From Dictyobacter arantiisoli (GTDB lineage: Bacteria; Chloroflexota; Ktedonobacteria; Ktedonobacterales; Ktedonobacteraceae): DNA of 56,870 nt. Both the position numbers and the translations under genes were made by a program. The DNA lies in assembly GCF_008326305.1 (NCBI RefSeq), contig NZ_BIXY01000039.1, positions 1 to 56,870 of the forward strand, written 5' to 3'. Positions 40,587 through 45,921 of this stretch are shown one piece after another (within the stretch, counting starts at the first letter, position 1; the number at the start of each line of letters is the position of its first letter). The notes beneath the pieces were generated by a model. It did no database searches. It had not been told where the DNA came from and saw only the letters and a program-made list of their open reading frames with translations.

Positions 40587-40610
40587 ATCAGTGTTCCAAG
40601 CGAACAACCT

Positions 40611-40682
40611 TCCTCGATAGCTCAATGGTAGAGCAATCGGCTGTTAACCGATTTGTTACAGGTTCGAGTCCTGTTCGAGGAG
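40611..40682 (+). tRNA. tRNA-Asn (GTT)
   Basis: Acceptor TCCTCGA pairs with TCGAGGA, with G73. The anticodon loop CTGTTAA gives GTT and the T arm has GGTTCGAGTCC. No CCA is encoded. Confidence 0.95.
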
Positions 40683-40687
40683 TTTCT

Positions 40688-40792: not shown

Positions 40793-41899
40793 GTGGAACG
40801 AGAACTAGCTGACATTCATTTACAGGCCATCACCAAAAGCCTGCTTGAAGCCTCCCCTTTGCCAACCTTTATTGTCAATCGCAAGGCAAATATCCTCTAT
40901 TGCAACCAGCCTGGTATGCAATTTAACGTGCGACATCCCTGGGAACCAGGGATGGCCCTCAACCACATCGTCGAACATCCAGAGATCATCCAGCTGGTCC
41001 ATTCCAGCATTGAGACCAATACAGCGCAAAAAGGCTTATATGAGCAGGGCAATTCAGATGTCGCATGGAAGGTCAGCGTCTCCCCACTTGCCGATCAAGA
41101 GGACATCTCCAACCTCGGCTACGCGTATTTTGCAGTCATTATTGAAGACATGACCGAGTCCCGCCATATCGAACGTATTCAACGCGACTTTATCGCCAAC
41201 ATCTCCCACGAATTGCGTACCCCCCTCACCTCGGTCCGACTGCTAGCAGAAACGCTAGAAGATACCATTGATACCGATCCCGATAAAGCCCAGGAATTTG
41301 TCGAGAAGATCGAAAATGAAGTTCAATATCTCAGTGAACTGGTAGCGGAACTCCTCGAACTCTCACGCCTGGAATCGGGCCAGACCCTGATGACAATTGA
41401 GCCTGTGGGAGCCGAACATATGGTGCGTGAAGTCATGGCACGTATGCTGCCCCTGGCACAACGCCATCGGGTACAACTTATCACCAACATCGAGCAGGGA
41501 GACACTCAGGTCGTAGCCGATAGCAAACAGATCACACGTGTCCTCGTCAATCTGGTCCATAATGCCATCAAATTCACCTCTTCCGGTGGACAGATTACCG
41601 TTGGCACCGCCTTACAGGATGATCGTCAATCACAGCGCATCTTTGTCAAAGATACAGGCGTAGGCATCCAGCCTGAAGAACTCTCACGCATCTTTGAACG
41701 CTTCTACAAAACAGATCGCGCCCGTGCCAAACCCGGTTTCATCGGTCCGGGAGGAGGGGGCACGGGGCTCGGCCTCTCCATTGCCCGTCATGTCGTCGAA
41801 ACGCATGGTGGACATATCTGGGCTGAAAGCACCTTCGGCGAAGGAAGCACCTTTATCTTTACGCTCCCTGTCGCCATTCAGCCTGACACAGCCCACTAA
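40793..41899 (+). CDS. PAS-containing sensor histidine kinase (PhoR-like, soluble)
   Basis: A 368-residue kinase. Residues about 10-125 form a PAS-like domain (TKSLLEASPLPTFIVNRKANIL, split). HisKA carries the phosphorylated His in NISHELRTPL, and HATPase_c has N-box LVNLVHNAIKFT, G1 DTGVGI and G2 GGTGLGLSI with a Gly-rich GPGGGG lid. No membrane helix is present. The open frame begins inside the tRNA, but GTG 40793 after AGGAGAAG is the realistic start. No response regulator is adjacent; the CheY-like gene lies 570 bp downstream. Confidence 0.9.
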   Translation: MERELADIHLQAITKSLLEASPLPTFIVNRKANILYCNQPGMQFNVRHPWEPGMALNHIVEHPEIIQLVHSSIETNTAQKGLYEQGNSDVAWKVSVSPLADQEDISNLGYAYFAVIIEDMTESRHIERIQRDFIANISHELRTPLTSVRLLAETLEDTIDTDPDKAQEFVEKIENEVQYLSELVAELLELSRLESGQTLMTIEPVGAEHMVREVMARMLPLAQRHRVQLITNIEQGDTQVVADSKQITRVLVNLVHNAIKFTSSGGQITVGTALQDDRQSQRIFVKDTGVGIQPEELSRIFERFYKTDRARAKPGFIGPGGGGTGLGLSIARHVVETHGGHIWAESTFGEGSTFIFTLPVAIQPDTAH

Positions 41900-42469: not shown

Positions 42470-42865
42470 ATGAACAAACTCGTAATGGTAATCGATGATT
42501 CCGCAACGGTCCGCAAAATTGTGGAGACATGTCTGAGACGCGAGGGCTTTGATGTGAAGAGTTTCCCCGATGGCGTCGAAGCGATGCGCTGGCTGACTGA
42601 GCCTGACGCCCGGGTTCCCGACCTGGTTGTCCTCGATATTGGACTGCCAAAAATGGATGGCTATGAGGTGGCCCGACGTCTCAAAACAAAACCACAATTT
42701 AGTAATACTGTGATTATCATGCTGTCTCGACGTGATGGTATGATCGATAAACTCAAAGGACGCCTTGCGGGCGCTAAAGATTATTTAACGAAACCTTTTA
42801 AGACCCAGGAAATTATATCTGTAATTGAATCACACCTGGGTGGCCCTGCATTGACATCGCAATAG
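42470..42865 (+). CDS. CheY/PilG-like single-domain response regulator
   Basis: A 131-residue receiver domain with the acidic pair in VIDDSATV, the phospho-acceptor Asp in VVLDIGLPKMDG, the Thr/Ser switch as Ser (MLSRRDG) and Lys in LTKPF. No output domain. It heads a three-gene cassette with CheW and CheA and is probably phosphorylated by an Hpt or kinase partner. The YEVARRLK and GMIDKLKGRLAGAKDYLTKPF segments resemble PilG of twitching systems. RBS is GAGAGAGGA. Confidence 0.9.
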   Translation: MNKLVMVIDDSATVRKIVETCLRREGFDVKSFPDGVEAMRWLTEPDARVPDLVVLDIGLPKMDGYEVARRLKTKPQFSNTVIIMLSRRDGMIDKLKGRLAGAKDYLTKPFKTQEIISVIESHLGGPALTSQ

Positions 42866-42878
42866 AAAAACAGGTGCC

Positions 42879-43463
42879 ATGAGCCAACACCCATTGCTGT
42901 CCGCAGCTGTGCTGAACGGCACGCATGTGCAGTTTCTCGAACAATTAAGCGATACAGAGTTCTGGCAATATGCTGAGCAATTAGCTAAAACGCCATCTAT
43001 GCCTGCTGCCCAGGTAGATGAATATCTAGAGTGTGCCTGCGTGGAAGGACGCGTGATTCTCCCTCTCGCCAGTATATGCGAGGTGTTAGCCGCGCCACGC
43101 CACTATGTGCAACTACCAGCATCCCCGACCTGGATGCTTGGTGTCACCACCTGGAAAGGTGAAGCGGTAGCAGTGATCGATCTGGGTGCTTTGTTAACAC
43201 AACAGCCAGCGCAAGACCATGTGGATCAAGTCTTGTTAATTACTCATTGCGAGAATACAACGCTCGCCTTTACCGTCACGCTCTCACGTACTTATCCGAC
43301 CATACCTGTAGAATATATCCAACCATTCATACCACCAGAAGCCTCCAGCACCAATGGGCTGTCTGAAGCAATTCAAGGTATCTACGCTGGTGCTCTGGTT
43401 CTGAATATGGCATCCATTACCACTCTAATCATACATCAACTACAATTTACTGCTTATGAATGA
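42879..43463 (+). CDS. CheW-like scaffold protein
   Basis: A 194-residue protein. After about 50 N-terminal residues comes a CheW domain (ILPLASICEVLAAPRHYVQLPASPTWMLGVTTWKGEAVAVIDLGALL, given only in part: WMLGVTTWKGEAVAVIDLG). CheW couples receptors to CheA. The start ATG has a weak AGGTGCC upstream, 13 bp after the RR. It overlaps the cheA start by 8 nt, so the two are translationally coupled. Confidence 0.85.
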   Translation: MSQHPLLSAAVLNGTHVQFLEQLSDTEFWQYAEQLAKTPSMPAAQVDEYLECACVEGRVILPLASICEVLAAPRHYVQLPASPTWMLGVTTWKGEAVAVIDLGALLTQQPAQDHVDQVLLITHCENTTLAFTVTLSRTYPTIPVEYIQPFIPPEASSTNGLSEAIQGIYAGALVLNMASITTLIIHQLQFTAYE

Positions 43464-45921
43464 AACAACACCTCCATTTGATGAAAATGAGCTGACAGAT
43501 GAAGATTTAGAGATACTGAAAAGCTTCGATGCTATCGAGAGTTGGTCAGAACCTACCTCCTTATCCTCCTCCACAACGCCACAACCAGCGGATACATCCA
43601 CAACCGTGGAACAAGATGAAACACTAGAAATGCTGCTTGTTTTTCTGGAAGAGGCCAACGAGGATATTGCTAAAATAAGGCAGGCGCTGAATCAGATCCT
43701 GCAGCAGCCGCAGCCGTCTCCTACCCGCTTTACCAGCTTCCAGCGTGCAGGCCATAAGCTACGTGGTACAGCAGGTGCCGTTGGCTATAACACTATGTCC
43801 ATTGCCGCTGAACATATCGAAACCATCGCCGAGCAGGTTCAACAGGGGCGAGTACAACCAGAGACAGGACTGGAAGCCATCTCACGTGCGCTAGTCGTGC
43901 TGGATCATTGCCATCAATATCTTTCAGAAGAGGGGCATGAACCCGAGGCTCCCGATATGATTGCCAATCTGGAGGCATACTATATCACTCTGGACATAGA
44001 TATTACTCAATCCTCCAGTTCAGATACAGGACCACTGAGTGTACAGGGAACCTATACAACAGCAGATCAAGCCAGGATTACACGACACTTATCCCACAGC
44101 GAATCAACAGCAAAATTAGATACACACAAGACAACATCACAGACCAATTCTGCGATCAAACCACCAGCCAGAGAAGATGAGAACACGGCATTTATTCAGA
44201 TCGAAGCCCGGCGTTTCGAACAATTCCTCAATCATACGCGAGAATTGTTCAATCTTAAGGCAGCGCTCGATAACGCTCAACAGAATGTCACAATCGCGTT
44301 ACAAGAGCAACAAGTTGCGTTGGTCCGCTTACAACAACTTGAGCAACCACTCACCAATCAGTTGCAAGCAGAGCATCCTTTACCAGTTGAAGATACATTC
44401 AACTCATCCTCACTCATCGCACGCATCTTAAGTACGGCAGACCCGGAAACACTACGAAACAGCAAACAAAAACAGCGTCTGCGTCCTCCATTCGTCCAGG
44501 CGGAACATTCCTGGGATGAACTGGATATGGAGCGTTACACAGAAAAAGATCTGTTGTCGCGCTCCTTACGCGAAGCTATCATGCAAGTAACCGCCTGCGC
44601 CAACCGTGTCACGCTCGCCACCACAGAACTTCAGGCGCTTCAGCAAGAGTATCAGGCACATGTGGCCTTCGTCTATAACGATACCCGCCAGATGCGTCTG
44701 ACCCCACTCAGCGTCATCATACCCGGACTACAGCAGATTATTGCCGAGAGCGTCCTGGCCCGGCAATATCAGGTCGCCGTGGAATTTGCTGGCGATCAGC
44801 TCGAAATTGATCAGGCCATTTTAGAAATTCTAGCTCCAACCCTTCAACAGATGTTGCATATCTGTACATCCGATAGCTCCGTCATCCAGGAAGAACAGCA
44901 AGAACTGTATCGCATCTGGTTTCAGGCACATGGCAACGGGGAACTCATCACCATTGAGATCGGCTTCTCTATGCCTGTGCTGGGTGGCGCGTTAGAAGTT
45001 TTGCAGACGATGGTACAAAAACTAAATGGCTCCCTGAATCCACAGCGCAATGCCAGCGGAGGCGTCAGCTTTCATCTCTCCTTTCCACGCACATATGGTG
45101 GAGTCAAAAGCTTAATTGTGCGTATCGACGATCAACAATTTATAGTACCCATAGCGCAAATACAGCGTGTCGGACTTCAGGGACAGGAGAGCTGTGATCA
45201 AAACTATCAGCTTAAAGAGCTAATCGATTTCGCCGATAGCTCGACGGTCAATTCTGCTACAAATAGTCCCAGACCGTTGTTAATCATGCAATCACAGGCT
45301 ACCCGCAAAACCGTGGGCATCGTGGTTGACGAGATTATTGGTGAGGCCGAAATGATGGTCAAACCACTTGCCAATATCTTACAACGTCCCGGCATCAGTG
45401 AATCCGCTATCGATGGGCAAGGCAATGTCCTTTTTATGATTGATCTATCAGAAGCACTCAGATATTATATGAAGCAGGCGGCAACGCACAACCTGACCGC
45501 CAGACAAGAAGGAATGAGGCCAGCTCAGCCCAGACGTTCGAGCAATACTATGGCTAAAATACTCATTGCAGATGATTCAGCCAGTCACCGTCAGGCGATT
45601 ATCCGCACGCTCAAGCAAGAACGCTATGCTATCGCAGAAGCCAGAGATGGTATGGAAGCAATTGAGCAGCTTATGGAGAACACGCCCGATATCTTCCTGC
45701 TGGATATTGAAATGCCCAACCTCAATGGCTATGATGTTCTCAATATCATCCATGAATATCCTGAACTGGCCCATATTCAAACGATTATGCTCACCTCACG
45801 CACCTCAGAAAAGCATATGCAACGTGCTCTCGAACTTGGTGCGCAGGCGTATCTCACCAAACCATGTTCGCAAGAACTCTTACTTGCCACCATCCATAAG
45901 TTGCTCGCCCGCCCATCCTGA
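43456..45921 (+). CDS. CheA-like Hpt-CheW-REC hybrid with degenerate kinase core
   Basis: An 821-residue protein. An acidic N-terminus (1-55) is followed by an Hpt domain with phospho-His100 in GHKLRGTAGAVG, a long Gln-rich linker, a helical dimerisation region (MRLTPLSVIIPGLQQII, the CheA RMVPFSRL-type motif), a remnant HATPase (about 435-540), a CheW domain (about 548-680) and a C-terminal receiver (about 697-821) with DDSASHRQ, LLDIEMPNLNG and LTKP. Where CheA has LRNAVDHG the text reads MLHICTSDS, and no GxGI or GTGLGL box follows. It therefore probably cannot bind ATP. Confidence 0.85.
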   Translation: MNETTPPFDENELTDEDLEILKSFDAIESWSEPTSLSSSTTPQPADTSTTVEQDETLEMLLVFLEEANEDIAKIRQALNQILQQPQPSPTRFTSFQRAGHKLRGTAGAVGYNTMSIAAEHIETIAEQVQQGRVQPETGLEAISRALVVLDHCHQYLSEEGHEPEAPDMIANLEAYYITLDIDITQSSSSDTGPLSVQGTYTTADQARITRHLSHSESTAKLDTHKTTSQTNSAIKPPAREDENTAFIQIEARRFEQFLNHTRELFNLKAALDNAQQNVTIALQEQQVALVRLQQLEQPLTNQLQAEHPLPVEDTFNSSSLIARILSTADPETLRNSKQKQRLRPPFVQAEHSWDELDMERYTEKDLLSRSLREAIMQVTACANRVTLATTELQALQQEYQAHVAFVYNDTRQMRLTPLSVIIPGLQQIIAESVLARQYQVAVEFAGDQLEIDQAILEILAPTLQQMLHICTSDSSVIQEEQQELYRIWFQAHGNGELITIEIGFSMPVLGGALEVLQTMVQKLNGSLNPQRNASGGVSFHLSFPRTYGGVKSLIVRIDDQQFIVPIAQIQRVGLQGQESCDQNYQLKELIDFADSSTVNSATNSPRPLLIMQSQATRKTVGIVVDEIIGEAEMMVKPLANILQRPGISESAIDGQGNVLFMIDLSEALRYYMKQAATHNLTARQEGMRPAQPRRSSNTMAKILIADDSASHRQAIIRTLKQERYAIAEARDGMEAIEQLMENTPDIFLLDIEMPNLNGYDVLNIIHEYPELAHIQTIMLTSRTSEKHMQRALELGAQAYLTKPCSQELLLATIHKLLARPS

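Follow-up and report, generated by a model that had tools for sequence, protein, structure and literature searches.

A CheA homologue that appears to have lost its ATP site, and its possible place in a phosphorelay, in the Ktedonobacteraceae

How does a CheA-like protein come to keep its phosphotransfer domains when its ATP-binding domain appears to be broken, and what would supply it with phosphate? A locus of the soil bacterium Dictyobacter arantiisoli raises this question. The window analysed here is the whole stretch of DNA, 56,870 nucleotides long, that contains the locus. An earlier note, made from the letters alone, had proposed that the protein lost ATP binding and that another kinase, such as the PhoR-like enzyme encoded upstream, feeds phosphate into its Hpt domain. 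The features of the locus are as follows.

40610-40683: tRNA-Asn (GTT), between an MgtE-like gene and the kinase gene
40793..41899, + strand: PhoR-like PAS-HisKA-HATPase kinase (Pfam HisKA 1e-21, HATPase_c 1.1e-28)
42470..42865, + strand: REC1, single-domain receiver, 131 aa (Pfam Response_reg 1.9e-27; Asp56 and Lys108 kept)
42879..43463, + strand: CheW, 194 aa (Pfam CheW 1.8e-13; position conserved among orthologs)
43456..45921, + strand: CheA pseudokinase, 821 aa (open reading frame, Pfam, and orthologs in 27 of 29 family genomes)

The genes for REC1, CheW and the CheA pseudokinase (hereafter the pseudokinase) are closely packed on the + strand (42470-45921). The pseudokinase gene begins with an ATG and shares its first 8 bp with the 3' end of the CheW gene, and FtsH is encoded downstream on the opposite strand. 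We place the start of the kinase gene at 40793, as the earlier note did, because the longer open reading frame from 40625 would run into the tRNA-Asn. In the window 570 bp separate the kinase gene from REC1, and thus the two may not be co-transcribed. A promoter scan performed at about chance level (8 found versus 6.4 expected).

The pseudokinase has the domain order Hpt, P3-like helices, dead P4, CheW and receiver. Pfam places Hpt at residues 58-136, CheW at 597-668 and Response_reg at 702-813, and the same scan detected neither HATPase_c nor H-kinase_dim. Taking alignments and models into account, the parts of the protein are these.

43627..43935, + strand: Hpt domain, residues 58-160, with phosphoacceptor His100 in HKLRGTAG (Pfam Hpt 1.6e-10)
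44206..44694, + strand: predicted P3-like dimerisation helices, residues 251-304 and 363-413 (AlphaFold2; no Pfam H-kinase_dim)
44695..45093, + strand: dead P4, residues 414-546, with the N box lost, G1, F box and lid deleted and G2 vestigial (alignment, profile, fold model)
44842..44883, + strand: degenerate N box, LQQMLHICTSDSSV (alignment and residue table)
45094..45507, + strand: P5 / CheW-like domain, residues 547-684 (Pfam CheW 8.4e-8)
45553..45906, + strand: receiver domain, residues 700-817 (Pfam Response_reg 1.4e-27)

The description of the Hpt, CheW and receiver domains as well kept holds for the orthologs too: Pfam detected each of the three in 22 of 22, and HATPase_c and H-kinase_dim in none of the 22. 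A residue table of 21 orthologs has His100, Lys101 and Gly104 of the Hpt invariant, as well as Asp706/707, Asp750 and Lys802 of the receiver, which in the window also keeps Thr780. The dimerisation remnant is a different matter; it goes undetected by Pfam and is read from the long helices predicted at residues 251-304 and 363-413. The full-length model matches CheA P3-P4-P5 structures. Between the P3-like helices lies a disordered loop with the motif SSLIARIL (residues 318-325, nucleotides 44407-44430). The general form of this motif, S[ST]L[IVM]xRIL, occurs in all 21 pseudokinases and in none of 23 intact CheAs, and judging from this pattern it is possibly a docking peptide.

The state of the ATP site was read from an alignment of 21 pseudokinase orthologs with 14 sister-family cassette CheAs and 9 Chp-type CheAs. 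The N box is LQQMLHICTSDSSV in the pseudokinase and LIQLVRNAVVHGIE in its nearest intact relatives. The N-box Asn, present in 14 of 14 and 9 of 9 intact CheAs, is found in 0 of 21 orthologs (Ile469 in the window), and the N-box His has become Asp473. A deletion of about 50 residues has removed the G1 box, the F box, the ATP lid and the start of G2, such that the distance from the N-box Asn to just past G2 has a median of 57 residues (51-61) in the pseudokinases, compared with 107-115 in intact CheAs. G1 and F are wholly deleted in 21 of 21. G2 has shrunk to VLGGALE, with two of its three glycines substituted in 21 of 21, and the G3 Gly is retained. The statement that the G boxes are absent is thus correct for G1 but too strong for G2 and G3, traces of which persist.

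A profile of the P4 remnant (residues 404-548) matches the P4 domain of T. maritima CheA (4xiv_A) at 1e-15. The match is split into two blocks, chain residues 59-159 and chain residues 216-251, and the roughly 56 chain residues that separate them have no counterpart in the remnant. The AlphaFold2 model of the fragment has a pLDDT of 86.9, and its best Foldseek matches are CheA P4 domains. Judged by profile and model, the domain is a CheA P4 by ancestry and fold, minus the G1/lid segment. The check by structure prediction that the earlier note had called for thus gave a P4 fold with the G1/lid part missing and no intact ATP pocket. Because the motifs are missing family-wide and the predicted fold is without this segment, there is strong support for the view that ATP binding has been lost. 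On this point, that a CheA-like protein has lost its ATP site, the earlier note was right: the N box has lost its Asn and its His, and the deletion runs through every ortholog aligned.

The lesion is a property of the family. By profile search, the pseudokinase is present in 27 of 29 sampled Ktedonobacteraceae genomes, including Dictyobacter, Ktedonobacter, Tengunoibacter, Thermosporothrix and Thermogemmatispora, in a REC1-CheW-pseudokinase operon; a search of the genome contigs with the single protein gave no relatives. The two family genomes in which it is missing both belong to genus g3. Among 400 genomes of the phylum, no full-length match was found outside the Ktedonobacteraceae, and we found no literature that joins Ktedonobacter, chemotaxis and histidine kinase. 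The destroyed active site could suggest a decaying pseudogene or an assembly error. We rejected a pseudogene or frameshift, given orthologs in 27 genomes and an identical deletion wherever it can be checked, including all 21 full-length copies tabulated. An open frame and the same deletion recur across family genomes at 35-54% identity, with the domains constrained, and decay or misassembly is accordingly an explanation to which we give almost no credence.

The mean pairwise identity of the P4 remnant (46.7%) is on a par with that of the neighboring Hpt (40.2%) and P5 (39.7%) domains, and for this reason the dead P4 probably keeps a role. Conservation despite catalytic death would also be expected if the protein were nothing but a scaffold whose Hpt is never phosphorylated in the cell. 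However, a scaffold would have no need of His100, Lys101, Gly104 and the receiver Asp and Lys residues, all of them invariant in 21 of 21, and we regard this explanation as very improbable.

Where did the pseudokinase come from? Sister families of the order (f2, f3 and f4) have a cassette with the order DUF4388-REC1-(REC2)-CheW-CheA, in which the ATP boxes are present; in a few diverged sister CheAs the G1, G2 or N box escaped a simple pattern, yet these proteins align. The sister-family cassette CheAs (G030, G031, G041 and others) share with the pseudokinase the gene order REC1-CheW-CheA and differ from it in their intact ATP boxes, an upstream DUF4388 gene and the lack of an adjacent kinase gene; in the sister-family loci that were read, no kinase homologue adjoined the CheA cassette. 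In a CheA tree, all pseudokinases form one clade with 100/100 support. Its nearest neighbor is the G030 cassette CheA, and the Chp CheAs stand apart from it. This tree was midpoint-rooted only, and its Chp rows and f2 cassette rows cluster together. An N-terminal motif like LSDEDLAILRAF is common to the pseudokinases and the intact cassette CheAs of G030 and G031. These comparisons show the pseudokinase to be a homologue of the active CheA that sister families encode in the same REC1-CheW-CheA cassette. Since there is a single clade whose nearest intact relative is a cassette CheA, the loss of the ATP site was, as far as the tree and alignment indicate, most likely a single event in the stem of the Ktedonobacteraceae. 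We also considered whether the pseudokinase had arisen when the Chp CheA of its genome was recently duplicated, and rejected this origin, because the tree splits the two proteins with 100/100 support and because the gene order and N-terminal motif shared with the G030 cassette contradict it.

If the pseudokinase cannot phosphorylate itself, the kinase encoded upstream is a plausible supplier of phosphate to the cassette, judging from its sequence and position. Its active site is intact. Of the 29 family genomes, 28 have an ortholog, with more than one copy in G019 only, and in most Ktedonobacteraceae genera it adjoins REC1 or lies one open reading frame away. The distance to the cassette is about 10 kb in Ktedonosporobacter (G008) and about 60 kb in Thermogemmatispora. 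This adjacency inside one family is a signal of shared ancestry, not multiple independent events. In sister families the kinase has distant homologues (L200, L202, L204) that lie beside open reading frames that read as pstS, pstC and pstA, and the proximity of these apparent phosphate-transport genes fits a PhoR origin of the kinase. In most genera of the family, the window genus excepted, an open reading frame of about 270 aa lies between the kinase gene and REC1 (for example L061:5202-6011, L041:8746-9594 and equivalents). Its product looks helical and has no Pfam match.

REC1 is 71-93% identical across the family and its phospho-site residues are invariant. In genus g3, CheW and the pseudokinase are lost, and the kinase and REC1 genes are still adjacent. 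For example, one g3 genome (G006) has a kinase-REC1-FtsH locus, and its only CheW and CheA are the Chp copies. Because they remain adjacent there, the kinase and REC1 look like a constant pair, at least by gene order. HisKA kinases normally phosphorylate receivers, not Hpt domains. A route through REC1 is therefore likelier than direct transfer from the kinase to the Hpt, which we judged unlikely on general two-component chemistry. The proposal that the PhoR-like kinase feeds the Hpt thus gains from the genomic linkage and the 28 orthologs, and it needs changing in that the path is likely indirect, via REC1.

The persistence of the kinase-REC1 pair in G006 also suggests that the pseudokinase is accessory, and this raises the question of which way phosphate would flow. 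The pseudokinase could be a sink or brake on REC1, with phosphate passing from REC1 to His100 and on to the C-terminal receiver, there to be hydrolysed, and with REC1 as the output. That receiver has every phospho-site residue. The anatomy is identical to that of a forward relay, however, and genomics is blind to direction; moreover, REC1 itself lacks an output domain. We consider a sink unlikely.

The genome offers another possible donor. The window genome has two CheA proteins, two CheW proteins and four MCPs. The second CheA (1506 aa) is complete and belongs to a Chp-like system on a separate contig, C38 (L053, G000:C38:41104-61103), together with an MCP, a CheW, two receivers and an open reading frame that reads like DUF4388. 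Three further MCP signalling domains lie outside this cluster (G000:C35:62011-62460, C40:39686-40222 and C104:12931-13431) and are possible receptors for CheW and the pseudokinase. An intact-type CheA gave a strong match in every genome of the order that was searched, and the copies that were read have the boxes. The C38 CheA is an alternative donor, out of sight of the earlier note. It might phosphorylate His100 in trans, through a mixed dimer or shared receptor arrays; the match to an intact-type CheA in every order genome searched, the presence of four MCPs but just two CheAs and two CheWs, and the CheA3/CheA4 pair of Rhodobacter sphaeroides (PMC3591291; PMC10782961) speak in favor of this. 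The two CheAs are nonetheless on different contigs, each with its own CheW gene, and the kinase that is linked to the pseudokinase across the family is a HisKA kinase. The precedent is also imperfect: CheA4 is without P1 and is encoded in the cheA3 operon, whereas the C38 CheA is complete and unlinked, and the operon described here consists of REC1, CheW and the pseudokinase only, with no partner CheA lacking P1. Phosphorylation in trans is, in our judgment, a doubtful alternative.

Several known systems resemble parts of this arrangement. The closest homologous precedent for the pseudokinase is Rhodobacter CheA3, and RcsD is the best working analogy. CheA3 of R. (Cereibacter) sphaeroides does not autophosphorylate, its P4 having lost helices and ATP/Mg residues, and like the pseudokinase it is a CheA homologue with a dead P4 and an intact Hpt and CheW domain (PMC10782961, PMC3591291). 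It differs in being fed by CheA4 from the same operon and in having extra dead Hpt and P2 domains as well as a phosphatase function; the pseudokinase, in turn, has no CheA4-like operon partner, ends in a receiver and neighbors REC1 and the HisKA kinase. RcsD, of the enterobacterial Rcs phosphorelay, is kinase-like without a canonical active site, and its Hpt relays phosphate from receiver to receiver (PMC5651002). By analogy, the pseudokinase would likewise combine a dead kinase domain with an Hpt that passes phosphate between receivers, and the ingredients are present here, namely REC1, the kinase, an Hpt whose phospho-site is intact and a P4 that is dead. RcsD is, however, a membrane sensor and not a CheA homologue, and the receiver that donates to it is part of RcsC, whereas REC1 would be a separate donor. 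Homology to RcsD is not indicated: the domain order is that of CheA, and the structure matches listed are CheAs and receivers, none of them RcsD.

Within the CheA family, the Tfp/Chp-class (ChpA-like) proteins, of which the C38 CheA is one, share the order Hpt-P3-P4-CheW-REC. The C38 CheA retains every ATP box, carries several Hpt domains and is encoded beside an MCP, whereas the pseudokinase has neither the boxes nor a neighboring MCP. FimL of Pseudomonas aeruginosa is also a non-catalytic relative of a ChpA-type CheA (PMC3019171). It corresponds to the ChpA N-terminus only and has lost its phospho-histidines, in contrast to the pseudokinase, which keeps His100, a P4 remnant, CheW and the receiver. 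A survey of CheA domains found HATPase_c in every CheA and recommended that CheAs be identified by the pair HATPase_c and CheW (PMC10782961). This rule would miss the pseudokinase, because HATPase_c is undetectable in it family-wide.

Since nearly all of the family has the same broken kinase with its relay parts kept, we think that the pseudokinase most likely acts in a relay and receives its phosphate from another kinase, as read from the genomes. The wiring that we infer for the cassette begins with the kinase, which would autophosphorylate and hand its phosphate to Asp56 of REC1. REC1 would exchange phosphate with His100 of the pseudokinase, and His100 would pass it to Asp750 of the protein's own receiver. 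The P3/P4/P5 body and CheW would hold the relay together as a dimer, possibly coupled to chemoreceptors. That the pseudokinase is a CheA-derived phosphotransfer scaffold in this particular chain, from kinase to REC1, reversibly to the Hpt and on to the receiver, has in our view about an even chance of being correct.

We speculate that the phosphate source of the cassette may have switched from CheA to a HisKA kinase, with CheA becoming an RcsD-like intermediary. In such a family-wide swap, a PhoR-related HisKA kinase would have taken over, and CheA, disarmed by the G1-to-G2 deletion, would have been kept as a phosphorelay scaffold; we hold this history tentatively, as a serious possibility that falls short of probable. 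The pseudokinase and its intact sister-family homologues make a before-and-after pair for the roles of P3, P4 and P5 beyond catalysis. If the relay model is true, evolution can preserve a CheA/CheW body that has no kinase activity, and if the kinase swap is true, this body would regulate a relay in the Ktedonobacteraceae rather than start it.
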